33,395 nucleotides of DNA from a virus. The position numbers were made by a program, and so were the translations under genes. The notes beneath the pieces were generated by a model that had not been told where the DNA came from, did not search any database, and saw nothing but the letters and a program-made list of their open reading frames with translations. Below are positions 4,371-33,395 of the stretch, piece by piece; within the stretch, counting starts at the first letter, position 1, and each line of letters opens with the position of its first letter. Location of the stretch: positions 1-33,395 of the IMG/VR virus record IMGVR_UViG_3300044619_002661. One strand, given 5' to 3'.

Positions 4371-6815
4371 ATGGCAGGACAATCAACAGAAACACAAGTA
4401 AACCTCAAGATAAACGGAGAATCCGCAGCAAACACGCTCAAGACAATGGGTGGAGAGGTGAGAGGTTTGCGAAAAGAACTTGCCGCAATACCAGTAGACA
4501 CACAGGCTTTTATTGACAAAGCAAAGGAGCTGGATGTGGCAGAAAACAGGCTTTTGGCTGCAAAGAATGCAGCCAAAGAAGTGAGAACTCAAATGAATGC
4601 CCTGGGAGATGATACCAAGAAAGCCAGAGCAGACCTGCTATCACTTTCACCTGTGGGAAGAATGTTGCAAAATCTGCAAGAAGGCTTTACCACAGTGAGA
4701 ACTGCAGTGGGAGCCAACATTGCAGGCATGAATCTTTTGAAGCTTGCCATTGCAGCCACAGGCATTGGCGCTTTGGTTATTGCCCTGGTTTCATTGGTAC
4801 AATACTTTAAAAACACTGATGATGGTGCCAAAAAGCTTGAAGGCGCAATGAAAGCACTTGGTTTCATTACCAACACCCTCATGAATGGATTTCAAAACCT
4901 TGGAAAATTTATGGTGGAGGCTTTTGACAATCCCAAAAAGGCACTTAATGAATTGGGGGATTTCTTGCTTAATAATTTGATAAACAGATTTAAGGCTTTT
5001 GCAGTCATACTGGATGGAATTATCAGTCTGGATTTTAAAAAAGTAACTGATGGAACCATCCAACTGGCATCCGGAGTGACAAATGCCACTGATAAAATTG
5101 CGGCTTTGGGTGATGAATTAAAGGCGGCAGCAGAGGCAGGTTTTGACCTGGCCAACATGATAGACGCATATGATGAAGCCCAGTCGAATGCTTTGGTGAC
5201 AAATGCAAAGTTTGAAGAGCAGATCTCCAGGTTGCTACTTCAATCCAAAGACCGCACCAAATCAGAAGAAGACAGGCTGGTTTTATTGGACAGGGCATCA
5301 TCATTGGAAACACAAAGGCTGCAGGATCAGATTTCACTTTCAAATCAAAATCTGGAAATCAAAAAACTGGAATTTGAGCAGGCACAAAAAACAGGCAACC
5401 AGACAGATGAGCAATACAAAGCTTTTAAAGAGGCAGAGGCAGAAATTATAGGGTTGAGAACTTCAAGCATAGAGCTCCAGGAAAAAATATCTAATAGGCG
5501 CAATGCCTTGCTGGAAGCTTCTGAGAACAAAAGGAAAACAATGGAGGAGGCTGAAAAGAAAGCCCAGGAAGACAAAGAAAAAGCAGAGCTTGACTACATA
5601 AGGAGACTTACAGACTTACGAATTACCAACATAGTGGATGAAGAAGACAGAAAGCGAGCTCAAATAGAAGTGTCTTTTCAAAGAGGTTTGGAGGATGCCG
5701 CACTCAAAGGCCAGCTCACTACAGATGTTGAACTTGAGCTCAAGCGGCAAAGGCAGTTAGCCCTGGATGAACTTGACAAAAGTGTGGAAGAACAACAGAT
5801 TCAGAGGATATTAACGGCAGAAGAATTAAGGCTTCAGGAACAGCAACTGGCAATTGAAAATCTGGTATTAACTGAGCAAGAAAAAGAAAATCGACTTTAT
5901 GAGGTAAACAGGATCGGGCTGGAAAACAGGCTTACACTTATGCGAACACAATATGGTGAGCAAAGCAATGAAGTAAAAAAAGCACTTCTTGAGCTGAGTA
6001 AGTTAGACACAGACCACCACAAGAAGACAACCGACAATTCAAAGAAATCAGCGGACTTTGATGCCAAGATCCAGCAACAAAGGTTTGATTTAACAGCCAG
6101 CGCTTTGGGAGGTATAGCTGAGTTATTACAATCTGATGTAAAAAACAGGCAAAAAAATGCCGAAATGATAAAGCTCTTTGCAGCCGGTGAAGCCATTGCC
6201 TTGGGTGTAAAAGAGGTGGCAGGTATTTGGTCAAATGCAAACATGAATGCACTTAATGCTGTGATACCAGGCTGGGGTCCGGCATTTGCCGCAGTGCAAA
6301 CAGCGCTGGCAGTGGTCAGAACTGGTGCCGCAGTCAATAACATAAACTCTACAAAATTTGCCAAAGGTGGTTTGAGCAGAGTAAATGGTGGCATTCTTCC
6401 TGGCAGAAGTCACGAGCAGGGAGGTGTAGGTCTGATTGACAATGCAACAGGGCGCAGCCTTGGCGAGGCTGAGGGTGGTGAGTTCTTTATGGTACTTTCA
6501 AAAAGCTTCACAGAAAGAAACAGGCCTGTTTTGGATATGTTTTTGGATGCCAGCCTTTCAGGTAGCAATAAAAGATTTTACAGAGAGGGTGGCTTTGGCA
6601 GCATAGATGATACCAATATGGTTTCAAATGCACCCGGAGGCGCTGCAGGTTCTAACCAGGAATTGATGTCAGTTACTAAGCAGCAAATAGAGCTACTTGC
6701 ATCCATCAACAACAGACTAGGAAACGGCCAGAGAATTCAGGCCACTGTATCCTATGAGCAGTCTCAGTCTGTGGCAGATGAAGCGGCTCAGATAGAGGCT
6801 GAAGCTTTGGCCTAG
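4371..6815 (+). CDS. Tail tape measure protein
   Basis: The 814-aa protein has the tape measure layout. It begins with helical N-terminal repeats, has a strongly hydrophobic segment at about residues 122-146 (AIAATGIGALVIALVSLV), then a long highly charged coiled-coil from about 250 to 600. It ends with an alanine-rich hydrophobic helix pair and the Gly-rich ending (AKGGLSRVNGGILPGRSHE, then AEGGEFFMVLSKS) seen in many Bacteroidota phage tape measures. It sets tail length and helps DNA entry. At about 1.5 angstrom per residue, 814 residues would give a tail near 120 nm. It is the last gene of the rightward late region and ends tail-to-tail, overlapping the integrase end by four bases. Being downstream of the fibre genes is an unusual order. 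Confidence 0.85.
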   Translation: MAGQSTETQVNLKINGESAANTLKTMGGEVRGLRKELAAIPVDTQAFIDKAKELDVAENRLLAAKNAAKEVRTQMNALGDDTKKARADLLSLSPVGRMLQNLQEGFTTVRTAVGANIAGMNLLKLAIAATGIGALVIALVSLVQYFKNTDDGAKKLEGAMKALGFITNTLMNGFQNLGKFMVEAFDNPKKALNELGDFLLNNLINRFKAFAVILDGIISLDFKKVTDGTIQLASGVTNATDKIAALGDELKAAAEAGFDLANMIDAYDEAQSNALVTNAKFEEQISRLLLQSKDRTKSEEDRLVLLDRASSLETQRLQDQISLSNQNLEIKKLEFEQAQKTGNQTDEQYKAFKEAEAEIIGLRTSSIELQEKISNRRNALLEASENKRKTMEEAEKKAQEDKEKAELDYIRRLTDLRITNIVDEEDRKRAQIEVSFQRGLEDAALKGQLTTDVELELKRQRQLALDELDKSVEEQQIQRILTAEELRLQEQQLAIENLVLTEQEKENRLYEVNRIGLENRLTLMRTQYGEQSNEVKKALLELSKLDTDHHKKTTDNSKKSADFDAKIQQQRFDLTASALGGIAELLQSDVKNRQKNAEMIKLFAAGEAIALGVKEVAGIWSNANMNALNAVIPGWGPAFAAVQTALAVVRTGAAVNNINSTKFAKGGLSRVNGGILPGRSHEQGGVGLIDNATGRSLGEAEGGEFFMVLSKSFTERNRPVLDMFLDASLSGSNKRFYREGGFGSIDDTNMVSNAPGGAAGSNQELMSVTKQQIELLASINNRLGNGQRIQATVSYEQSQSVADEAAQIEAEALA

Positions 6816-7972
6816 TATTCTGGCCAGTTTCCAAGAAACTGATCCGTTGGATTGATGAGGCCCATATTGGTGAGGTATTGAGCTGTCTGACTTGGTGAAG
6901 AGTGGCCGCAAAGCATCTGGATGATATTAATGGGCACACCTGCCTTGTAGCACATGATCGCACCTGTGTGTTTCAATGCATAAAGGGTGTGCCCTTCTCC
7001 ATTCAATTTGCAAATCTTCAGGTATTTACTTAGGAAATCATAAAAATGGGTGGTTGTGAAAGCTTTTTCCGATGGCTTACCCTCTTTTCCAAAAACATAA
7101 AAATCAGCTGGGTAATTTCGCAGGCCATGCTTTTGAATCAGCCTTTCCAATGGTGGTATGATTGGCACCGACCTGCCACCAGTTTTGCCTCTTTCCTTTG
7201 GAATGAAAATAGATTTCTCCCTCAGCTCACCAACCTTTAAAAAATGGAGCTCCTTTCTTGGTCTGGCAAGGGTAAAAAGACAAAAATCAATAAACAGACA
7301 CCATTGATGGTTATTGTCTTTTTCGGCTTCAAGTTTTAGCCTGGCAATTGACTCAAGATTGAAAGGAATATTTTTTTCTCCTTTCGGCACTTTTTTTCTT
7401 GCCACTTTCTCTGCCACATTTTTTTCAAGAATATCCAAACTGACCAAATATTCAAGACTTGAATAAATGATCCCCAGATATTCATTGAATGTCTTTGGTC
7501 CAAAACCATTTTTATTTTCCATCCATTCCATAATTTCCACCACATGGATGGTTTTAAGTTTTTGGACTTCAATTTTTGGCTTTTTCTCAAAAAACATTGA
7601 CACCTGGGAGATCACCCACTTGTGTGTAGATTGCCAATTCCGGGAAAGGTCTTTTGATTTTTTGTCAAAAGAATATTGAATGGCTTCGGGAAGGGTAAAA
7701 GTCTGGTTTTCCTTCTTTTTTTTGCCATCAGGCTCTACAATCTGCAAACCTTTCTCCAGGTATTCTGTGATTTGCTTGATATAGCTTTCTGCCAGCTTGT
7801 ATCTCTTTGCCTTGTCTTTGGTGTGGTTCAGATTAAGGGCAAACCTTTGCCTCACCAGCTCACCATTTTCTTTATTGGTGGCATAATAGATGATATACCA
7901 CCTTTTGGAGACATCACCACCATGATCTACCAGCCTTGGTTTTTTGAATTTTGGCTTACTTTCTTCTGGCAT
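6812..7972 (-). CDS. int: Tyrosine-type site-specific integrase
   Basis: I choose the start at 7972 (MPEESK, 386 aa). The longer open frame to 8074 would read through an arm-type repeat and the attP core. The N-terminus is basic (arm-binding-like), the middle (about 100-190) is SAM-like core-binding, and the C-terminal half is catalytic. Visible catalytic positions are the first Arg of ARPRKEL, Lys of KTGGR, a YALKHT box (about 331-336) where most family members have HxLRHT, His of GHSS (about 357), and the nucleophile Tyr366 in QTAQYL. The Y/K variant is, from memory, a known subgroup in Bacteroidota. It would integrate the phage through the adjacent attP. No excisionase was identified with certainty. 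Confidence 0.88.
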   Translation of the reverse strand: MPEESKPKFKKPRLVDHGGDVSKRWYIIYYATNKENGELVRQRFALNLNHTKDKAKRYKLAESYIKQITEYLEKGLQIVEPDGKKKKENQTFTLPEAIQYSFDKKSKDLSRNWQSTHKWVISQVSMFFEKKPKIEVQKLKTIHVVEIMEWMENKNGFGPKTFNEYLGIIYSSLEYLVSLDILEKNVAEKVARKKVPKGEKNIPFNLESIARLKLEAEKDNNHQWCLFIDFCLFTLARPRKELHFLKVGELREKSIFIPKERGKTGGRSVPIIPPLERLIQKHGLRNYPADFYVFGKEGKPSEKAFTTTHFYDFLSKYLKICKLNGEGHTLYALKHTGAIMCYKAGVPINIIQMLCGHSSPSQTAQYLTNMGLINPTDQFLGNWPEY

Positions 7973-7995
7973 TGCGGAATTGAGTAACCTTAAAC

Positions 7996-8022
7996 TTACT
8001 GCCCCAAATACTGCCACAAAAA
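7996..8022. repeat. Arm-type integrase site, left copy of a 27-bp direct repeat
   Basis: This 27-bp sequence recurs at 8176-8202 with one mismatch (C for A at its ninth base). Each copy contains two ACTGCC(A/C)CAAA units 12 bp apart. The two copies flank the candidate att core, as arm-type sites do around a phage attP. An alternative is operator sites for the repressor. Confidence 0.6.
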
Positions 8023-8065
8023 GTGAAGCAAGTAGGTAACTATCTGATATAACGGTGTTTAAACT

Positions 8066-8087
8066 GTGGACCATACTGGGCTCGAAC
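8066..8087 (-). other. Candidate attP core, resembling the 3' end of a tRNA gene
   Basis: Read on the minus strand, the core is GTTCGAGCCCAGTATGGTCC followed by AC. GTTCGAGC is a T-loop sequence, CCAGT would be the 3' half of a T-stem, and ATGGTCC the 3' half of an acceptor stem. Bases upstream (TTAAAA) do not complete the T-stem, as expected where phage sequence takes over from the shared tRNA part. The core lies between the two 27-bp repeats and beside the integrase. I infer that the phage inserts at a tRNA 3' end whose acceptor 5' strand is GGACCAT. Confidence 0.55.
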
Positions 8088-8202: not shown

Positions 8203-8727
8203 TTAGTTTGGGATTAGCTTTTCCGGTGACATAATCTTTCGAAGTTCTTCTCTTAGACATTGAGCCACATCAGCCATTTCAATTAGTTCTTTTCTTAGTT
8301 TTTCAATTGTCTTTTGCTTGGTTTCATTCTCTTCCCTAAGCTGTTCATTTTCAATTCGCAATAAAATTTCTTTAGCATTATTTCTTTTGTTCATATCTTC
8401 TTCTTCTTTGTTATCTCTTTGGGTTGCCACAAATTGATCCTTGTTTGTTGGAAGACTGAAATCCTTGTTATTATTCTTATTTACAAACCTAAACCACTCA
8501 GAATTTGGAATTTGAGTGGTAAAAATTCCAATATCGACTCCAAACTCTTGACAAATCTTAATTCTAAATGAGTCCCTGATATTGTGGGTACCATTCTCAA
8601 GTAGAGAATAGCTTGATTCTGCAACCCCTAGAAATTCTGCCATTTGCTTTTGCTTCCATCCTTTTAAGTTCCTTATGAACATGATGGGGGTTAATTCTTT
8701 ATCTATCGTTTTTTTCTGCACTTTCAT
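8203..8727 (-). CDS. XRE-type helix-turn-helix repressor with C-terminal coiled coil
   Basis: The chosen start (MKVQKK) gives 174 aa; the frame also extends to 8781 but those residues would use most of the promoter region. Residues about 14-62 form an XRE helix-turn-helix (IRNLKGWKQKQMAEFLGVAESSYSLLENG). The last 60 residues (NAKEILLRIENEQLREENET onward) have a heptad pattern of a coiled coil for oligomerisation. There is no S24 peptidase domain, so induction by RecA-driven self-cleavage is unlikely. It faces the 8815 gene across an 87-bp region with a palindrome. Position and domain make it the probable prophage repressor. Confidence 0.75.
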   Translation of the reverse strand: MKVQKKTIDKELTPIMFIRNLKGWKQKQMAEFLGVAESSYSLLENGTHNIRDSFRIKICQEFGVDIGIFTTQIPNSEWFRFVNKNNNKDFSLPTNKDQFVATQRDNKEEEDMNKRNNAKEILLRIENEQLREENETKQKTIEKLRKELIEMADVAQCLREELRKIMSPEKLIPN

Positions 8728-8770
8728 ATAAGAAATGAATTTAATTAGTGTTGCACGAATTCTTTTACAA

Positions 8771-8786
8771 AATCTTAACAAAGATT
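8771..8786. promoter_or_regulatory. Candidate operator palindrome in the lysogeny switch
   Basis: AATCTT at 8771-8776 and AAGATT at 8781-8786 are perfect inverted arms around AACA. The palindrome lies between the divergent repressor and 8815 genes and overlaps the candidate -7 element of the repressor promoter. It is a natural site for the repressor or the Cro-like protein. Confidence 0.4.
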
Positions 8787-9813: not shown

Positions 9814-10029
9814 ATGCAAGTAGAAATCAACTCCGAATTTTTGGAAGAACTAACTGACCAAATACTTGTGCTTGATTTTATGCGCTGGAAGTATATCCGC
9901 ACAATGCCAGCAGCCAGAGCAGAAAAAGACCTCTGGGAGATAAAAAAAAGAGAAAGGCTTCTGAGAAATGATGCCAATCTTCTCAAATCAGAATTAAAAA
10001 AATATTTAGAAACTCTAAAGAATGAGTGA
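9814..10029 (+). CDS. Hypothetical helical protein, 71 aa, upstream of the primase
   Basis: I choose ATG 9814 (MQVEINSEF), one base after the upstream stop; an earlier non-ATG start at 9787 would overlap that gene. The product is almost wholly helical and charged, with a likely coiled coil at the C-terminus (RLLRNDANLLKSELKKYLET). It overlaps the primase start by eight bases (10022-10029), so it is likely coupled with primase synthesis and might be a replication accessory. Confidence 0.6.
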   Translation: MQVEINSEFLEELTDQILVLDFMRWKYIRTMPAARAEKDLWEIKKRERLLRNDANLLKSELKKYLETLKNE

Positions 10030-12973
10030 AGTTAAAAACACGTTAATCAGCTTTTTTAAAGGTGGAATTCACAATGTAGCCAGCCCGGAGTTTATCACTT
10101 TGGAGGCGGCTCTGGATTACATCAAAACAGGAAAGGAGTTTGAGCCACTCATCAGAGAGCTCAGGTCTGAAAAGGAAAAGGAAAAAAGACAAGAATTAAA
10201 GAAAAAGCTCAGCTATTTCATTTTTTCAGGAACTTTTAAAAAGCGAAATTCAAAAGAACTGGTAGATCACTCAGGGCTTTTGGTTATCGACTTTGACAAT
10301 GTAGCCGATGTGCTTAACACCAGGCTACAACTACAGGCAGATCCTTTCACTTTGGCACTTTTCAAAAGTCCAGGTGGAGATGGTCTCAAGCTTTTGGTCC
10401 GCATTTATCCAGACAAGCACCTGGAAAGCTTTAAAGCTTTGGAGGTTTACTTTAAAGACAACTACCAAATGGAGGTAGATAAGTCTGGAAAGGATGTTTG
10501 CCGAGCTTGCTATACCTCAGCCGACACAAGTCTGTTTTTTAATCCGGATGCCCAGCTTTTTACCACCACTTATGTGGCTGTAGATGAAGAAACAGGCGAG
10601 GTAAAAGAGGTGGAAAGGGTATCAGCCAAAAACGAGAGGAGGCAAATGACAGATTTGCAATACTCTGAGCTGATGGCCAACCGGGTAATAGATGCAGCCA
10701 TAGACCTTACAGACCCTTATGATAACTGGATGCTTCTGGCTTTCTCCATGGCCAGCCTTGGAGAACCAGGTAGAGAACTGTTTCAAAGGCTTTCTTCCAT
10801 GCATGTGGACTATGACCACAAAAAGGTGGATGAAAAGTTTGACAATGCCATCAAAACAACCCGGTTTACTACTCCAAAGTGGTTTTGGAAGGAATGCAAG
10901 CAAAGAGGCTTAGATACAAGCTATCCAAAGGATGAAAATGGGCTTGTAGTCACTCCCAGGTCAAAGGCAAAAGAGAAGGCAAAGCGAGCCGAGCTTGAGC
11001 ATGATGATGATGCAAACCTCATATTCACCTGGCCAAAGGGATGTGAGTTTGCCAATGGAGAAGAAAGGATGTTGGCAGAAAATTCAGTAAAGTTTTACCA
11101 GCATTTCAGCCACAAAAACATTACCTACATGGCTACCTTCAAAGCTGGTGATGTGGATGGCCTTAATGCCACCACTGTGTTTTTCAAAAGGGTTTCAAAC
11201 TTTGCTGTGCATAGCTACTATGTGGTAATGGATGAGGAGGGCAAAGCCAGCCGGATAGTGCAGCTCATTAATGCCAGGAAAGAAAGCATCCTGGCTATCA
11301 TTCCGACTGAGGCTTTCACTTCTGTTCAAGAGTTTTCAAAGTATGTGGAGAGAGGAAACTACTACCACAGCATGAGCAAACCGGAATTCACAAAGCTAAA
11401 AGCCAAAATCTATGATGATTGCAAGCACTGCAAGGTTATTTCTACACTTGGCCTGCAGCCTGAGGGCTTCTTTGCTTTTGCAAATGGCATTTGGGCAGAT
11501 TCCAACTTTGTAAAAATTGATGATTGGGGAGTGGTCCAGTACAAAGAGGCTTTTTACTTCCTTCCGGCTCTTTCTGCCATGTATAAGGATCAGATAAAGA
11601 TGTACCAATCAGAGCGCCAGTTTTTATTTGTTAAGCGCTCTGTGAGCTTTGGAGACTGGGCTGACCTGTTCTGCCAGGTATATGGTGAAAATGGAAAAAT
11701 CGGCCTCATGTTTTATCTGGCATCCATGTTTTCAGATGTCATTTTTAAGGTAGAAAACTTTTTCCCTATCCTGTATCTGTACGGAAAGCCATCCAGCGGA
11801 AAGACAACTATGGCCATAAGCCTTATTTCAATGCTTCAACCGACAGGTGAGACCTCAATAGGCTCCAATATCAACTCAACTCCTATGCCTGCACTATTCA
11901 GGCAGCTTGGTCAGGTCAGAAATGGCATAGTGCTCATAGAAGAGTACAACAACGACCTGGAGAAGCGGACCATTGAGTACATCAAACAGACCTGGAACCG
12001 GATTGCCTACACCAAATCAGACACAGCGGCTTCAAACACATCCACCAAAACTGTGGGCTTGCAGGTAGAATCTGCCACAGTAATGACCGGGCAGCACTTG
12101 CCCAATGTGGATGTGGCTCTTTTCACCCGGTGCATCTTGCTTTCATACTTCAAAAAAGAAAGCTACACAGATGATGAGCGAGATTTGATGGTAAGGCTTA
12201 AAGACATGCAAAGCGGATCGCTCACCCAGATTTCCTGTGAGATAATGAATCACCGGAAACTGGTAAAAGAAAACTTCCAAATCCAATACACGAAGGAGAA
12301 AAAAGAGTTTTCAAAGCACTTCAAAGGAGCCGACCTGGACAGGGTAGCTGGCCACTGTGCCCAGCTGATGGCTATCTACACCTGCCTGAAAGAAAAGCTG
12401 CACCTTCCTTTCAATTATGAACAGCTAAAAAACTGTGTTTTGGAGATAAGCCAGAAACAGATAGACATGATGCTGAGCTCACAGGAAAGCAGCACCTTCT
12501 GGGAGATCCTTCAGCACCTCTTTTTTCAGAACCGGATTTTTGATGAATCGGATTTTTGTGTGAGAAAGCTCCCGGCCATCACTTTGAAGGTGCATGGTGA
12601 GAAAAAGGAAAAGCAGGTGGAGTTTGGTGAAGAAATCGAAGTGCTTTTTCTGAGATTGAATAAAGTGCACGGCCTCTATCTAAGCGAAATGGGAATGCAA
12701 AGGCGCAAAGGCGCAATGGACAAAACCAGCCTTGCAAACTATCTGGAGAATTCAAAGCAGTTCATAGGCCAAAAGGCAAGCTTTAGGTTCAAAGATTCGG
12801 TCACAAGCTGCTATGTCTTTAACTATTCACTTTTGAAAGCCACAGGCATCACACTTGAAAAACTGGATGGCCAGGCCATGAGCTCTGATGATATAATCAG
12901 AGAGGATAAGTATGCAGAAGAAGGTGTGGAAGTGCCAACGGCAATACTAGCAGACAAAGATTTACCATTTTAA
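10022..12973 (+). CDS. Primase-helicase with VirE/BT4734-type N-terminal domain
   Basis: This 983-aa protein is the main replication enzyme. Residues about 20-190 match the VirE N-terminal/BT4734-like domain, including the LLVIDFDN strand near residue 91 and the PGGDGLKLLV strand, a primase-like fold widespread in Bacteroidota mobile elements. Residues about 215-300 look like a primase C-terminal helical domain (DNWMLLAFSMASLGE to PKWFWKECKQRG). A helicase-type ATPase follows, with Walker A GKPSSGKTT at about 587-595 and Walker B GIVLIEEYNND at about 635-645. It probably makes primers and unwinds the origin, relying on host polymerase; no phage polymerase was seen. It overlaps the upstream gene by eight bases. 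The iteron region at 16.7-17.0 kb is a candidate target. Confidence 0.85.
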   Translation: MSEVKNTLISFFKGGIHNVASPEFITLEAALDYIKTGKEFEPLIRELRSEKEKEKRQELKKKLSYFIFSGTFKKRNSKELVDHSGLLVIDFDNVADVLNTRLQLQADPFTLALFKSPGGDGLKLLVRIYPDKHLESFKALEVYFKDNYQMEVDKSGKDVCRACYTSADTSLFFNPDAQLFTTTYVAVDEETGEVKEVERVSAKNERRQMTDLQYSELMANRVIDAAIDLTDPYDNWMLLAFSMASLGEPGRELFQRLSSMHVDYDHKKVDEKFDNAIKTTRFTTPKWFWKECKQRGLDTSYPKDENGLVVTPRSKAKEKAKRAELEHDDDANLIFTWPKGCEFANGEERMLAENSVKFYQHFSHKNITYMATFKAGDVDGLNATTVFFKRVSNFAVHSYYVVMDEEGKASRIVQLINARKESILAIIPTEAFTSVQEFSKYVERGNYYHSMSKPEFTKLKAKIYDDCKHCKVISTLGLQPEGFFAFANGIWADSNFVKIDDWGVVQYKEAFYFLPALSAMYKDQIKMYQSERQFLFVKRSVSFGDWADLFCQVYGENGKIGLMFYLASMFSDVIFKVENFFPILYLYGKPSSGKTTMAISLISMLQPTGETSIGSNINSTPMPALFRQLGQVRNGIVLIEEYNNDLEKRTIEYIKQTWNRIAYTKSDTAASNTSTKTVGLQVESATVMTGQHLPNVDVALFTRCILLSYFKKESYTDDERDLMVRLKDMQSGSLTQISCEIMNHRKLVKENFQIQYTKEKKEFSKHFKGADLDRVAGHCAQLMAIYTCLKEKLHLPFNYEQLKNCVLEISQKQIDMMLSSQESSTFWEILQHLFFQNRIFDESDFCVRKLPAITLKVHGEKKEKQVEFGEEIEVLFLRLNKVHGLYLSEMGMQRRKGAMDKTSLANYLENSKQFIGQKASFRFKDSVTSCYVFNYSLLKATGITLEKLDGQAMSSDDIIREDKYAEEGVEVPTAILADKDLPF

Positions 12974-14786: not shown

Positions 14787-14810
14787 AAAAAACAAATCAA
14801 AAAACTCTAT
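14765..14810. repeat. Nested inverted repeat across the metalloprotease promoter and start codon
   Basis: Outer arms ATAGAGTTT (14765-14773) and AAACTCTAT (14802-14810) are perfect, and inner arms GATTTG (14781-14786) and CAAATC (14793-14798) surround six A. The inner left arm contains the -7 TTTG and the outer right arm includes the first two bases of the start codon. It could be an operator, or an RNA hairpin on a read-through transcript that hides the start. Confidence 0.5.
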
Positions 14811-16452
14811 GAAAAACTTTGTGATGCTTGGAATGGTGGTTTTACTATCATTCAATGGGTTTGGGCAAAAATTTGCAAACACCCAGTCAGAAAAAAACAC
14901 GATTGCAGAAGCAATGCCGGATTTTTCACTATCTAAAAAACAGGATCTGAAAAATGGCATTTGCCTGGATATCCGGCCAAGCTTGATATCTCAGATTTAT
15001 GCCACAGAGCCACAGACAATTTCTATTTCTATTCCTGGGTGGCCTGCCATCAAATTGCAAAAGGCAGAAATCTTCTCACCAGACTTTGCGGTGACCACCT
15101 CTGATGGTGCCACATTGAGAGGAAAGCAATACAAGGGAGTGCACTATTTTTCAGAATCCGGGATTGATGGCATTTCTTTTTTTGCTGACAGATTGATGGG
15201 AGTTATCACAAAAAACAATATTGCCTACAACCTGGGCAAAGAAGAGAAAGGCACCAGGTATGTTTTAATTTCTGAAAAGGATGGCCCGGCAATTGATTTC
15301 AATTGCCAGACACAGGATGAAAATGATTTTCCAACAAGCTCCAGACCTGCACCTGCCATCACTGCTTCCTGTAAAATTACCAGAATAGCCTTGGAGGCTG
15401 ATTTTGATTTGTATGTAAAATCAAACTCCTCTGTGAGTACCCTGGCAAACTTTACATCCGGAATTTTCAATGTAGTAAAACAAATCTATAGAAAGGAAGG
15501 TGTGGCCATCCAGTATGCAAGCCTGTTTATCTGGACCACTGTGGACCCTTATGCGACATTAACTCAGCCTTTCCAGATTTTACCATTGTTTTCAGCAAAT
15601 AGGCCCAAGCTACCAAGCTTTGACCTCATCCACTTATTGGAAAACAGGACGAATTCATTTGGCGGCATTGCCTTTGTGGGTGGGCTTTGCAATGGTTCGC
15701 CACATGGTGTTTCCAGTATTTTTTATAGTTTTAATCAATTACCACTTTACAGCTGGACAGTCTCTGTGGTATGTCATGAGCTTGGCCACAATTTCAACAG
15801 CAAGCACACACATTGGTGTGGATGGAATAAAGGCAACAATATCTATGGAAGACTTGATTCATGCTATGCAGGTGAAGGCTTTACACCACCTGCCGGAGCC
15901 ACTGTAGTTGGTTGCAACAGCACAAAAGCCTATAACTTTTCTGGAACCATTATGAGTTACTGCTACAACTATGGAGCGGTGAACCTCAACAAAGGTTTTG
16001 GCAAGCTCCCTGGTGATGTGATTCGGTTGTATGTAGCGCAAGGTGGATGCCTGCCAACAGTTACGAGCCCGATATGCGACAGCCTTAACACAACCATAGT
16101 GCAGCCACCACCACCTCCTCCAGCTCAATGTGTGACTGGATTGCAACATTTCACCAATGCATCCGGGCAAAGTTGTTTTCGATTTAACATACAGCCTGGA
16201 TGCAGATACACGCTCAACTATTGCAGATATGATGGCTACACCCAGGCAAACCAACCACCCTCCGGAGCCACCCCCTCTGCCTGTGGAATTCGAAATGGAT
16301 TGAGCAACTATCTGCCAACAGCCATTCAGCTTGCAGCTGGCAAAATAGAACTGGTGGCAAATGGCCAGCCATCATTCAGGCAAAGGTGGTATTCCCTCAG
16401 ATGCCAGGGCAGTGATGGCATCACACAGCTACATTTCTTTTGGTGGCCTTAG
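14809..16452 (+). CDS. Secreted metzincin (reprolysin-like) zinc metalloprotease
   Basis: The 547-aa protein starts with a Sec signal peptide (about residues 1-19, hydrophobic core VMLGMVVLLSF, ending GFGQ). A propeptide-like region runs to about 185. The catalytic domain has the extended zinc motif H323-E-L-G-H327-x5-H333 and a Met-turn with M382 (GTIMSYC), which define metzincins; the whole resembles reprolysin-like (M12) proteases of Bacteroidota. A six-proline linker near 430 leads to a Cys-rich C-terminal domain of about 110 residues. It should be exported, cut by autolysis and act on proteins outside the cytoplasm. The gene stands alone between terminators but has a late-type promoter, so it is probably made in the lytic phase. 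Roles could be degrading host surface or matrix protein, or being packed in the virion. A host-derived cargo gene is the alternative reading. Confidence 0.85.
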   Translation: MKNFVMLGMVVLLSFNGFGQKFANTQSEKNTIAEAMPDFSLSKKQDLKNGICLDIRPSLISQIYATEPQTISISIPGWPAIKLQKAEIFSPDFAVTTSDGATLRGKQYKGVHYFSESGIDGISFFADRLMGVITKNNIAYNLGKEEKGTRYVLISEKDGPAIDFNCQTQDENDFPTSSRPAPAITASCKITRIALEADFDLYVKSNSSVSTLANFTSGIFNVVKQIYRKEGVAIQYASLFIWTTVDPYATLTQPFQILPLFSANRPKLPSFDLIHLLENRTNSFGGIAFVGGLCNGSPHGVSSIFYSFNQLPLYSWTVSVVCHELGHNFNSKHTHWCGWNKGNNIYGRLDSCYAGEGFTPPAGATVVGCNSTKAYNFSGTIMSYCYNYGAVNLNKGFGKLPGDVIRLYVAQGGCLPTVTSPICDSLNTTIVQPPPPPPAQCVTGLQHFTNASGQSCFRFNIQPGCRYTLNYCRYDGYTQANQPPSGATPSACGIRNGLSNYLPTAIQLAAGKIELVANGQPSFRQRWYSLRCQGSDGITQLHFFWWP

Positions 16453-16458
16453 TTTAAG

Positions 16459-16526
16459 AGCTGAGAATCCTGTATTGCAGCCTACACCCTTGCTATTTAA
16501 AAAATATGGGATTCTCAGCTTCTTTT
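16459..16526 (+). terminator. Long-loop hairpin after the metalloprotease gene
   Basis: A perfect 12-bp inverted repeat (AGCTGAGAATCC 16459-16470, GGATTCTCAGCT 16509-16520) with a 38-base loop is followed by TCTTTT. It begins seven bases after the stop. It is a plausible terminator, although the loop is long and the T run interrupted. Confidence 0.55.
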
Positions 16527-16717
16527 ATCCAGACCCTCCCCTACCCACCTATCCGGATGTATATCCTGAATTTTCCTTTTATAAAATAAAAAAAGTTATG
16601 TCAAAAAAGCGAAAGGGATACTGCCTTCAGGTTTTGGAGGCTAGTCTGGATATAGAGGTGACTGTAAACCTCCAAAACCTTCAGAATTATTTCGATTTTA
16701 GCAAGGTGGCATATTTT

Positions 16718-16985
16718 CGACCTACACGACCTACAGACCTACAGACTATATATATATTTCTTCTTTTTAATTATAAAATATTTATATATAAGGGGTTAGG
16801 TTTTTGGTTTTGCGGTTTTGGCTGTAGGTTTTCTGTAGGTTTTTTGTAGGTCGTGTAGGACGGATTGAGTTTTGTAGGAAAATGCCGACCTACAGATTTG
16901 GGTGAATTCAAAAATCGACCTACAAAATTTAAACTGAAAGCCAGAGAGTTAAGGCACTTTGTAGGACTGTAGGACATGTAGGTCG
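16718..16985. repeat. Iteron array: 13 copies of TGTAGG(T/A) in both orientations (candidate origin)
   Basis: Minus-oriented CGACCTACA or GACCTACA units lie at 16718, 16727, 16736, 16886 and 16916. Plus-oriented TGTAGGT/TGTAGGA units lie at 16823, 16834, 16845, 16854, 16873, 16960, 16968 and 16977. Within clusters the spacing is 8-11 bp, close to one helical turn. An AT-rich stretch (16744-16798, mostly TATATA and AATTATAAAATATTTATATATA) separates the left and right clusters, as in an origin with a DNA-unwinding element. The array fills the largest gene-free stretch of the phage (16453-17211). Protein-binding iterons for replication or a regulatory array are the two readings; no gene was accepted here. 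Confidence 0.6.
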
Positions 16986-17093
16986 CAAAAACACCCCACA
17001 TTGAAAAACATATTTTTTTACCTCCCAGAAAAACAAAAAAACTCTAACCCTAAAAAAAAGCCAGATACCAGGTAGATATGATATCAATAAAAA

Positions 17094-17126
17094 TTTGATT
17101 ATTTCAAGAAAGTTAGAATACTTTTG
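17094..17126 (+). promoter_or_regulatory. Host-type (Bacteroidota) promoter, first of two in tandem
   Basis: TTTG (17094-17097), a 21-base spacer, and TACTTTTG (17119-17126) match the Bacteroidota sigma-A form TTTG-N19-21-TAnnTTTG. The 15 bases around the -7 element (17114-17128) are repeated exactly at 17171-17185. Confidence 0.65.
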
Positions 17127-17148
17127 TCACATTAAATTTAAGACCTAA

Positions 17149-17183
17149 TTTGTTGTTTAATAATATTTTATAGAATACTTTTG
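17149..17183 (+). promoter_or_regulatory. Host-type promoter, second of two in tandem, for the 17212 gene
   Basis: TTG (17153-17155) is 20 bases from TACTTTTG (17176-17183); TTTG at 17149 is also present at a 23-base spacing. Transcription would start near 17190, about 20 bases before the ATG. This contrasts with the GTCCT promoters downstream. Confidence 0.65.
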
Positions 17184-17211
17184 TCTTATTCAAAAATGGT
17201 ACTTTTCAAAT

Positions 17212-17706
17212 ATGATTAAACAGCATATTCTTCCTGTAAAGCCTTATGTATTTCAGGTTTTGCAGCATCAACTTGAAAATGGGGTTTTGAAAATCAACCG
17301 GAGAGTAGTCCGGACCATAACCAACCCGGTGAGGGTAAAGGAATACTTTGACAGGAATAAAAACTCAAAGTATTGCATAAAGGTAGAACTGCAAACCAGT
17401 TCCTTATACACTTTGCACGGCCTGCAGATGGAACTGGCAAGCCAATTCCGGGATAAACTTTACACCCATATAGCCATTTCAGTAAAGAGTGGATCTTCCG
17501 CAATGGGTGCTCTCAGGAGTTTTTTTGAGTTTTACAACATTACGGAAGACCAATATGATTTAAGCAGTGCATATCGCACCTGGCTAAGGGAGAAGGAAAA
17601 ATATCTGAACCCAAAAGAATACATGGAAAAAAAGATATGCCAGAAAGCAGAAAAGCAAGAGCAAAAACCAAAGAACAATTCTCAATTGACCATTTTCGGT
17701 CCTTAA
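17212..17706 (+). CDS. Hypothetical protein, 164 aa; candidate late-gene activator
   Basis: This is the first gene after the iteron array and the only late-region gene behind clear host-type promoters. The N-terminal 100 residues are mixed and basic (LKINRRVVRTITNPVRVKEY). Residues about 98-130 (GSSAMGALRSFFEFYNITED then DLSSAYRTWLREKEKY) read as two or three helices that could form a DNA-binding unit, and recall in a general way the C-terminal part of Mor/C-type phage activators; this likeness is weak. The C-terminus is lysine- and glutamine-rich. The stop overlaps candidate late promoter 3, which begins at 17699. I infer a regulator that turns on the GTCCT promoters. A replication-initiator role (iteron binding) is the main alternative. 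Confidence 0.5.
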   Translation: MIKQHILPVKPYVFQVLQHQLENGVLKINRRVVRTITNPVRVKEYFDRNKNSKYCIKVELQTSSLYTLHGLQMELASQFRDKLYTHIAISVKSGSSAMGALRSFFEFYNITEDQYDLSSAYRTWLREKEKYLNPKEYMEKKICQKAEKQEQKPKNNSQLTIFGP

Positions 17707-17737: not shown

Positions 17738-18157
17738 GTGAGGGAAATACGGAACATCGTTTTGCACTGCACGGCCAGTCCACAATCTCAGACCATTGCT
17801 GAACTCCTGAATTATTGGAGAACGGTAATGAAATGGAGAGTACCTGGATATCATAAAATAATACAGGCAAATGGTTCCGTAGTTTCCCTCATGGACTTTT
17901 CCCGACCCACCAATGGAGTGTCTGGGCACAATGCCAACTCTATCCACATCAGCTACTTTGGAGGGGTGGATATATCTGGAAAACCTGTGGATAACCGGAC
18001 ACCAGCACAAAGGGCATCAATGCTTGCCCTGGTGAAAGAACTTAGAGCCATGTTTCCAGATGCCAGAATACTTGGCCACAGGGATTTTCCGGGTGTGAAA
18101 AAAGCATGTCCTTCTTTTGATGTTTCTAAATGGTTGAAAGAAAATGGAGTTAATTGA
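17738..18157 (+). CDS. N-acetylmuramoyl-L-alanine amidase endolysin (T7 lysozyme-like)
   Basis: The 139-aa protein is a single amidase_2/PGRP-type domain that cuts the bond between N-acetylmuramic acid and L-alanine in peptidoglycan. Zinc ligands are H10 (VLHCTAS), H114 (GHRD) and C124 (KACPSFD); Y38 (VPGYHKII) and K121/K122 match catalytic positions of T7 lysozyme. It is a little shorter than T7 lysozyme (151 aa) and has no signal peptide, so release should depend on the holin at 27804. Translation starts at GTG; no in-frame ATG lies upstream, and the ATG at 17713 is out of frame. Its end overlaps the next gene by 14 bases. It is about 10 kb away from the holin and spanin genes. Confidence 0.88.
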   Translation: MREIRNIVLHCTASPQSQTIAELLNYWRTVMKWRVPGYHKIIQANGSVVSLMDFSRPTNGVSGHNANSIHISYFGGVDISGKPVDNRTPAQRASMLALVKELRAMFPDARILGHRDFPGVKKACPSFDVSKWLKENGVN

Positions 18158-31175: not shown

Positions 31176-33395
31176 TTGCCCTTATATCTCCGACTGGCCA
31201 GAGCCTGGATTTATTTCCCGACACCGTTGTGGGAATGGAACTCAAGAACCCGATTTTTGACAGTGAGTTTTTAAATGGTGGCTTTTCATATGCTTTCACG
31301 ATTCCACAGACAGAAGCAAACATTCTGTTTTTTGATTTCAAAAACAAAGTAGCAGCCAACCAGGATTTTGAAAGATTTTATTATGGCTTTACTTTAAAAA
31401 GTGGCATTACACAAATAGCTGTCACAGTCAGGCTTCGAAGTATGGTGGATGATAAGATCAACATCAATCTTTTTACAGATTCCGGCTCAGTGGCTTCATT
31501 GATGAAAAACACAAAGCTGAAGGATGTGCCGATGGATGAGATCCTTCTGCCTGTCACCTTTGGCATGTTCATCCATGCCTACATGGGATTGATTGCTGGT
31601 GGCCCAGAAGAAGGAGATTTGATTGGTACTTCACTAAAATATACCACCATCCCTGGCTTTCCAACTAATGAAATAAACTTTGCTGTAAAATTTAGAACCG
31701 ATGGCCCGACCACCATTCAAGACCTTTGCAACAAAATAAACAACCCGGTCCATCCGGAAGAATTTATCTTATCAAAAGCATATCTAAAAGATGATGTAGT
31801 AGTGAGCTCTGATGGTGTGTACTGGATGGCAAATGTGGACACCCAAAATGCAGATTTGATTGATGAAGAAGATGGCGGTAACTGGATATTTATTGGTGAC
31901 AGAGTGCTTTGGCATTTTTATTACGGCAATAACTACATAGCAAAAGAAAGATATTCTGACCCCTATGATGATGGCCGATTGCTTGCTACTCCAACAGAAG
32001 GACAGATTCCATTTACCAACTCATTTATAGTCCGGGATATCCGAGTGAGCACCCCAGACCTTATGATTCTCACCAACTCTTTTTCAAACTATGGAGAGTA
32101 TTATGGCTTTGATGTTTACGCTTCAAACGTAAACCCGGTAAACTTTTATACTGACTACCATGCCATGCTCAACACAGACATGAAGGCCAGAAACAACATT
32201 GCGCCTACAAGTGATCAGGCATCTCATGTCTTTCCATGTATTCGGAATATAGACTTTACTACTGAATCAGAGTTTGCTGGCTACCTAAACTATTTTGATG
32301 GTGGTAATTTTTCTTTCAATTCCAATGCCGTTGGATCTAGATTCAAATTTGCCATCAGCCCACAGGTCTATGTCAGCTATGTGTTTAAAAAGATATGTGA
32401 GTTTATTGGCTTTGAATACAACAAAGAATTTTTCACCCAAAACTTAGACCATGCCTCAAAGCTTCTGTATTCAAATAGAACCTTGAGCCAGATATCTGCA
32501 TTTTACACCAATGTGTATGTCTATCTGGATGCGTTTACAAATAACTACAGGCTTCAGGATGTAATGCCAGAGGGCACCATTTCTAATTTTATAAATGCCA
32601 TCCGCAGTTACTTTTTTTGGGGTGTGTTTTTTGATATCCGGTCAAGCAAAATAAAACTGGTTACCTACAACGACATACTTGATTCTGTGCCTTTGGATTG
32701 GACTGGCCTTGTGAGCCCGGCAGATGAAATCAGCTTTGAAAACAAATCTGGCTTTGTTGCCTTTTACCGGGAAGATGGTTCAGACCTTTATAAAAAAGAA
32801 TTCATAGAGCCAGATCTCATGGAGCCCAATAAATATAGGTTTGGCGAAAAAATATACTTCAAGCAATACCTGCCAAACTATGTTGAAAATGTTGACTTGG
32901 TCAGATATGTGGTAGATGAAGATAGCTTCTATCAGTATCAGCAAAACCCAGGCGGCTCAACAAGCTGGAATTTTATTTCAAAGAATGTGGTAGGTGTATT
33001 AAAAGGACAGGGAGAAACCAGACACCAAACCATGGCAGATACTTTGTTGATGGGTACCATAGCAAAAAAAGTAGGAGTTACCTGGCGAGTGCCTGTCACC
33101 AGAAGAGAGGCATACTCACTTTACAATTTCAGGTCTACCAGAGTGCCCATGAGATTTTTGAACTATCTTGGACTACAGCCAGACAGCTCAGACAATACAT
33201 ATCCAATGGCCAGCAGTGACAATATCAATTTTGATGGAGATGAAATTGCAGGCATAGGCCACACCAGATTTGAAAATGTTAATGGCCTTGTGGAAACAAA
33301 AGGCAAAAAATGGTTTGAGTTTTTAAACAACACCCAGGATGTAAAATTTACCATCCAGTTTGATGAAGTTACTTTTAACCAAATAGACTTTGCCA
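31172..33395 (+). CDS. Large putative tail protein, N-terminal 741 residues (continues at the left end of the map)
   Basis: One open frame runs from ATG 31172 to the last base with no stop; the protein starts MIALISPTGQSLDLFPDT. Joining at 33395/302 gives a 778-aa product ending at 415. It is strand-rich, with helical parts, and the sequence FSYAFTIPQTEANILFFDF near residue 35 is typical of tail-tip or baseplate proteins in Bacteroidota phages. It overlaps the upstream gene by four bases. A tail-associated or tail-tip structural protein is the likely role; no lytic domain was seen. It is the only gene crossing the contig ends. Confidence 0.7.
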   Translation, partial: MIALISPTGQSLDLFPDTVVGMELKNPIFDSEFLNGGFSYAFTIPQTEANILFFDFKNKVAANQDFERFYYGFTLKSGITQIAVTVRLRSMVDDKININLFTDSGSVASLMKNTKLKDVPMDEILLPVTFGMFIHAYMGLIAGGPEEGDLIGTSLKYTTIPGFPTNEINFAVKFRTDGPTTIQDLCNKINNPVHPEEFILSKAYLKDDVVVSSDGVYWMANVDTQNADLIDEEDGGNWIFIGDRVLWHFYYGNNYIAKERYSDPYDDGRLLATPTEGQIPFTNSFIVRDIRVSTPDLMILTNSFSNYGEYYGFDVYASNVNPVNFYTDYHAMLNTDMKARNNIAPTSDQASHVFPCIRNIDFTTESEFAGYLNYFDGGNFSFNSNAVGSRFKFAISPQVYVSYVFKKICEFIGFEYNKEFFTQNLDHASKLLYSNRTLSQISAFYTNVYVYLDAFTNNYRLQDVMPEGTISNFINAIRSYFFWGVFFDIRSSKIKLVTYNDILDSVPLDWTGLVSPADEISFENKSGFVAFYREDGSDLYKKEFIEPDLMEPNKYRFGEKIYFKQYLPNYVENVDLVRYVVDEDSFYQYQQNPGGSTSWNFISKNVVGVLKGQGETRHQTMADTLLMGTIAKKVGVTWRVPVTRREAYSLYNFRSTRVPMRFLNYLGLQPDSSDNTYPMASSDNINFDGDEIAGIGHTRFENVNGLVETKGKKWFEFLNNTQDVKFTIQFDEVTFNQIDFA
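33094..33395. repeat. Diverged terminal redundancy, right copy (matches 1-302)
   Basis: This is the gap-free counterpart of bases 1-302 with 15 substitutions. See the left copy for the pattern of differences. Confidence 0.85.

Follow-up and report, generated by a model that had tools for sequence, protein, structure and literature searches.

A TGTAGG iteron array as the likely replication origin of a temperate Bacteroidota-type phage, with the phage's own primase-helicase as proposed initiator

The window, i.e. the whole stretch of 33,395 bp analysed here, carries genes for an integrase (6812-8074, minus strand; found by Pfam scan), a repressor (8203-8781, minus strand), a primase-helicase of 983 aa (10022-12973, plus strand), a reprolysin-like (M12) metalloprotease (14809-16452), a 164-aa protein (17212-17706, plus strand) and an amidase (17738-18157); a terminase and a portal protein are also encoded. 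The two ends (1-302 and 33094-33395) are 95% identical over 302 bp, and judged by this similarity the record probably represents a complete genome of about 33.1 kb that can circularise, with ends that come from slightly different strains. The record itself carries no 'circular' mark. Adjoining the phage end region, a markedly GC-rich stretch (587-1978) encodes a 463-aa collagen-repeat protein, and the dense GGACC-type repeats within it are coding, not iterons. The M12 metalloprotease gene, found here in a temperate phage and kept with 65% DNA identity in the related contig L128, is possibly a moron gene.

Between the metalloprotease gene on one side and the 164-aa gene on the other lies a gene-free stretch of about 760 bp (16453-17211). 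It is the largest between accepted genes of the ORF list, as had been claimed, when two mechanical ORFs (16361-16849, plus strand; 16771-17001, minus strand) that both run through the repeats described below are set aside as spurious. Within this stretch 13 exact copies of TGTAGG are distributed over both strands and 262 bp (16721-16982), about 3.75 kb from the helicase gene and 235 bp from the 164-aa gene. The first three copies, starting at 16721, 16730 and 16738, are in minus orientation, and after a gap five plus, two minus and three plus copies follow. Nine of the 13 copies read TGTAGGT and four TGTAGGA, and inside clusters the copies are spaced by 8-11 bp. Thus, the original prediction of at least 13 copies of TGTAGG(T/A) in both orientations, spaced 8-11 bp in clusters within 16718-16985, was right in number and range. 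The gap between the left set of three and the right set of ten copies (16744-16822) is AT-rich and represents a candidate melting region. Its richest 40 bp are 95% AT, and the segment 16744-16798, named earlier as the AT-rich core flanked by the copies, is 85% AT and belongs to the top 0.07% among 55-bp windows.

TGTAGG occurs 28 times in the whole 33,395-bp window, 13 of these in the array, compared to 11.0 +/- 3.4 occurrences (largest value 20) in whole-window shuffles. A count of 13 is the maximum reached by any 6-mer across all 270-bp windows of the sequence, and the local Poisson score of the array (300 bp) is 10^-23.6. When paired TGTAGG copies were searched, five forward and two reverse matches were obtained, and the reversed-pattern control gave none. 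An Rfam search of the window produced no match, and scans for sigma-70 promoters and terminators stayed at chance level. A minimum of the GC skew at the array, which the original prediction led us to look for, was absent and the cumulative skew was lowest near 2-2.5 kb; because the skew here follows the coding strand, we regard this as uninformative rather than refuting. A small ORF of 34 aa in the same gene-free stretch (16598-16702) holds a 12-bp perfect inverted repeat (16629-16640/16669-16680) with a DNA fold z of -3.7.

The protein that we propose as initiator, the primase-helicase, contains a BT4734-like primase domain (residues 59-173), a PriCT_2 domain (228-290), an AAA+ helicase with a P-loop near residue 583 and a C-terminal winged helix. 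The predicted winged helix was located to residues 864-940 (codons 12611-12841, plus strand) by DSSP of model residues 524-600 and is the proposed iteron-binding domain; its wing residues 918-930 are encoded by 12773-12811 (plus strand). As a PDB sequence search with the helicase profile returned chance-level matches only, a fold search was needed. The AlphaFold2 model of residues 341-983 (pLDDT 90.6, pTM 0.82) matched best to 5dgk, the SCCmec protein Cch (Z 24.8, 473 residues), followed by 8tch, the SaPIBov1 Rep protein (Z 23.0, 460 residues, model residues 14-609). Both matches are nearly full length with the winged helix included, whereas the remaining rows, with Z values of at most 15.9, mostly cover the core only. 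The helicase thus shares its complete fold with known self-loading initiators.

Since a single-protein search found no relatives of the primase, an alignment-based search was used, in which the helicase part was compared to viral contigs, from which the best 80 of 129 loci were retained, and to GTDB genomes, which contributed the best 80 of 200; the GTDB relatives were mostly recorded as Bacteroidota. The resulting 160 related loci plus the window gave 161 loci in 103 clusters at 80% identity. L267 (broken frame) and loci with a helicase gene running off the contig were left out of the analysis. In 60 of 98 testable non-redundant loci a hexamer array was present at most 700 bp downstream of the helicase stop, compared to 68 of 1858 control 700-bp segments of the same loci (odds ratio 41.6, p = 7e-52). 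When the search was extended to +6.5 kb, arrays were found in 89 of 100 representatives and none in the other 11 at the threshold used. Of these 89 arrays, 67 lie at most 600 bp from the helicase stop, a share favoured by the procedure, which looked first within 900 bp of the helicase; the unbiased test of location is the 700-bp comparison. A location scan with masked coding regions misses arrays under spurious ORFs. Altogether, the phage encodes a candidate for its own cognate initiator, a primase-helicase that has an initiator-type fold and is associated with arrays in its relatives.

The arrays of the relatives resemble the one in the window in several respects. The consensus repeat contains TGT in 76 of the 89 chosen arrays, as opposed to 28 of the 78 further arrays in these loci (p = 4e-11), and lacks it in 13. 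Counted by representative, the repeats were TGTAGG (21), TGTAGA (8), TGTCTT (6), TGTAGT (5), TGTTGG (5), TGTAGC (4), TGTGGA (4) and several rarer ones. Among the 76 TGT arrays, 73 have copies in both orientations. Of 377 pairs of same-orientation neighbours less than 40 bp apart, 272 are spaced by 8-11 bp, and additional peaks lie at 19-21 bp (49) and 29-31 bp (29), which fits proteins bound along the same side of the DNA helix. In 59 of these 76 arrays, the AT content of the richest 40 bp reaches at least the 90th percentile for the locus, and in 42 these 40 bp fall in the largest inter-iteron gap. The window and its relatives thus show the pattern of iteron origins, i.e. multiple short repeats in phase with the helix next to an AT-rich region. 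Clustered sites in both orientations would also suit a partition (centromere) or other maintenance site, an explanation to which we give hardly any weight: the phage has an integrase, no partition protein was seen among the 20 window ORFs scanned with Pfam, and the association with initiator-type helicases would be left unexplained.

As regards conservation of the iterons, proposed earlier as a check, arrays of similar build occur together with this helicase family in phages and prophages that are only distantly related, and the spelling of the repeat differs by lineage, being TGTTGGAC in a Porphyromonas prophage, TGTCCG in a Microcystis phage, TGTTGGAACT plus variants in Cellulophaga phage Ingeline_1 and GTTGAGA in Flavobacterium phages laban6-1 and 6H. 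The type of primase changes as well, from BT4734 in the window to DnaG in the relatives L022, L083 and L095.

The repeat was also searched blindly, i.e. by three nearby TGTAGG copies in 2.9 million viral contigs and with no protein information. At least 120 contigs matched; the counts given here concern the matches listed and are not frequencies. Among the matches listed, 39 contigs had at least six TGTAGG in 400 bp in both orientations. When the proteins of these 39 loci and the window were clustered, the primase/helicase cluster was the most widespread family (13 of 40, window included), and the D5/DUF5906 helicase domain (PF19263) occurred in 13 of the 39 array loci and in 6 of the remaining 81 (p = 8e-4, among the matches listed), which is a partial enrichment only. 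PF08800 was rejected as a common factor of the array contigs, as it was present in only 2 of 43 records. TGTAGG arrays adjoin terminase/portal genes in L050, L090, L091, L047, L113, L078 and L108, where no gene of the 180-aa family, to which the 164-aa protein of the window belongs, was seen; they may mark either an origin near the packaging genes or another role of the motif. Cases such as L050, L090, L078 and L108 are what speaks for reading the array of the window as a packaging signal (pac/cos) bound by the small terminase. We consider this very unlikely, as the terminase of the window is more than 6 kb away and the packaging module of L128, with about 85% DNA identity, comes without a TGTAGG array.

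The contig L128 also bears on the protein encoded next to the array. The 164-aa protein, whose family measures about 180 aa in relatives, had no credible Pfam or PHROG match, and its single-sequence model was of low confidence (pLDDT 68.6). The family is present in 64 of the 89 array loci, and in 40 it supplies the gene that directly follows the array; of the 22 distal arrays, 14, including that of the window, lie at most about 240 bp from it. Between array and gene there are two promoter-like boxes. The first, TACTTTTG at 17119-17126 (plus strand; TACATTTG in L128), fits TAnnTTTG, which we take to be the Bacteroidota -7 promoter element, and a second TACTTTTG lies upstream of the 164-aa gene at 17176-17183 (plus strand) and is kept in L128. 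These boxes and the proximity of the gene would suit an operator array, in which the 164-aa protein or another regulator acts on the TGTAGG sites and controls the late promoter downstream. However, L128 has retained the 164-aa gene and the two boxes together with the late module, with 84.7% DNA identity over 7.6 kb, yet it is without the TGTAGG array, and only 129 bp precede its boxes and late genes instead of 709 bp in the window. That the array is absent although late genes and boxes are kept speaks against an operator of the late genes and against a site for packaging, and thus also against the array serving transcription control only, the outcome named beforehand as contradicting an origin. 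Moreover, 20 of 67 helicase-proximal arrays are more than 700 bp away from a gene of the 164-aa family. L128 has an array of its own, seven GGACCG/CGGTCC copies at the contig start (L128:29-203), 3.4 kb upstream, and may have undergone a swap of the replication module; as its replication gene is cut off, we can only infer such a swap. Another array, 11 copies of TGGACT, was noted at L131:16033-16242 in a distant relative of the terminase.

In most loci two proteins, the helicase and the 180-aa protein, flank the array. When the bases of the repeat were compared with both (TGT arrays only; 76 representatives, 126 loci before removal of redundancy), they tracked the helicase given the 180-aa protein (partial Mantel 0.168, p = 0.003, 57 loci), whereas the value for the 180-aa protein given the helicase was 0.072 (p = 0.057, 57 loci). 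The best of 146 columns of the 164-aa protein reached only p = 0.008. Fold, Mantel tests and L128 lead us to favour the helicase rather than the 180-aa protein as the iteron binder, and the operator explanation appears unlikely, although a secondary regulatory role of an origin is possible.

All the helicase residues that correlate with the repeat bases (918, 919, 920, 925, 927 and 929, with iteron bases 4-6) belong to the hairpin that forms the wing of the predicted winged helix. No column shares as much mutual information with base 6 as residue 929 (1.2 bits, next 0.94), which also ranked first of 563 columns for this base on 61 independent nearest pairs (p = 4.3e-7). With within-clade permutation at three clade thresholds, it ranked 3, 1 and 1 of 564 for base 6; for base 4, residue 927 ranked 1, 2 and 1 of 564 and residue 919 third, third and second; and for base 5, residue 918 came first or third at two of the three thresholds. 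In the non-redundant set (n = 77), 27 of the 31 loci with Ser929 have G at base 6, and 11 of the 13 with Gln have A. T is present in 4 of the 5 loci with Thr and in all 5 with Tyr, and C in 7 of the 11 with Arg. The pair L170 (Ser929, TGTAGG) and L282 (Thr929, TGTAGT) differs at about 6% of core positions, and 41 other aligned residues differ too. Other comparisons were less clear: the leading columns of the sister-pair test for base 4 are outside the wing, helicase segment 360-430 also shows excess divergence in pairs with different repeats, and in a smaller matched set of 27 pairs residue 929 was not among the top four columns. Among held-out loci, L292, L293, L294, L015, L022 and L083 fit (G at base 6, Ser929) and L295 breaks the rule (A, Ser), i.e. 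one of seven evaluable, with L296 not alignable there; this check is weak because no pair is more common than Ser/G and, of the six fits, three are close relatives. Residues 927 and 929 thus rank with the strongest correlates of bases 4 and 6 of the repeat, as correlations in related sequences and not as phylogenetic proof.

The array with its architecture, the association with the helicase family, the initiator-type fold and the correlation of repeat and wing were all computed directly, and together with the repeat tracking the helicase they support the iteron origin that had been predicted. With a probability of roughly 0.87, we read the array as the replication origin of a temperate Bacteroidota-type phage whose own primase-helicase would bind TGTAGG via its C-terminal winged helix. 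By analogy with SaPI Rep and SCCmec Cch2, replication would start at the array as follows. The winged helix would bind the iterons to the left and right of the AT-rich core, and helicase rings would assemble at the core from the flanking arrays. The helicase would then melt the core, load onto the strands exposed in this way and unwind, and the fused BT4734-type primase domain would prime the strands for a host or phage polymerase.

The arrangement recalls several known origins. PICI origins lie directly 3' of the gene for the initiator and consist of two iteron sets that enclose an AT-rich region, an arrangement said to be shared by no other known bacterial replicon (PMC6092414), and the C-terminal domain of SaPI Rep and Cch2 was reported to recognise iterons downstream of the gene (PMC7581432). 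The window shares with the SaPI/PICI pri-rep-ori the initiator helicase fold (8tch) with a C-terminal DNA-binding domain and the two iteron sets, here three copies left and ten right, around the AT-rich region. Unlike there, its array is about 3.75 kb away and not immediately 3' of the helicase gene (at most 700 bp in the 60 of 98 loci), the primase is of BT4734 type (window) or DnaG type (L022, L083, L095), and the iteron combines a near-constant TGT with variable bases. As terminase and portal are encoded, the element is not a PICI, and complete phages rather than helper-dependent satellites are concerned. SCCmec Cch (5dgk) is the top structural match of the helicase; Cch2, which belongs to a different helicase family than Cch, likewise binds direct repeats downstream of its gene with its C-terminal domain (PMC7581432), but its site consists of three 5-nt AAGTG iterons and element and host are others. 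The pRN1-type replicon has a fused primase-helicase with a C-terminal winged helix and an origin 3' of the gene (PMC4234260). It differs in having a long stem-loop instead of iterons. Lambda O and Rep iteron origins also have repeated sites next to an AT-rich region. They use a separate initiator without helicase domain, and no separate initiator of lambda O/Rep type was seen among the window ORFs scanned.

An iteron origin of SaPI/PICI-like kind is known, and a family of Bacteroidota phages with a changing repeat is new; in the open-licence literature we found no description of an iteron origin in Bacteroidota phages. The array and the helicase provide a concrete candidate origin and initiator for a phage group of a phylum dominant in gut and sea, and extend the SaPI/PICI origin plan to complete phages. 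This would help in annotating origins in uncultured Bacteroidota phages and in building replicons for these hosts. The TGT half is nearly constant, and the pairing of initiators with origins is probably decided by the next three to four bases, which are lineage-specific. With a repeat that switches in this way, the specificity between origin and initiator is open to direct tests in which residues and bases are exchanged. Going further, a large family of temperate Bacteroidota phages may use self-loading MCM-like initiator helicases that read a fixed TGT plus a variable triplet by a simple wing code (for example, at base 6, residue 929 Ser for G, Gln for A, Thr or Tyr for T and Arg for C; base 4 would be read by 919 and 927), a tentative generalisation to which we give somewhat less than even odds. 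If it is true, sequence could reveal the specificity of a replicon, and perhaps which phages are able to coexist in a cell, and a few substitutions could switch it.

Helicase elements residing together in one MAG mostly differ in their iteron (e.g. TGTTCCA, TGTACCG and TGTTCCG). Such co-resident sets are L231/L260/L266 (same MAG), L248/L259 and L236/L268, and their differing iterons hint at incompatibility groups. L262 and L263 share TGTCTTG.
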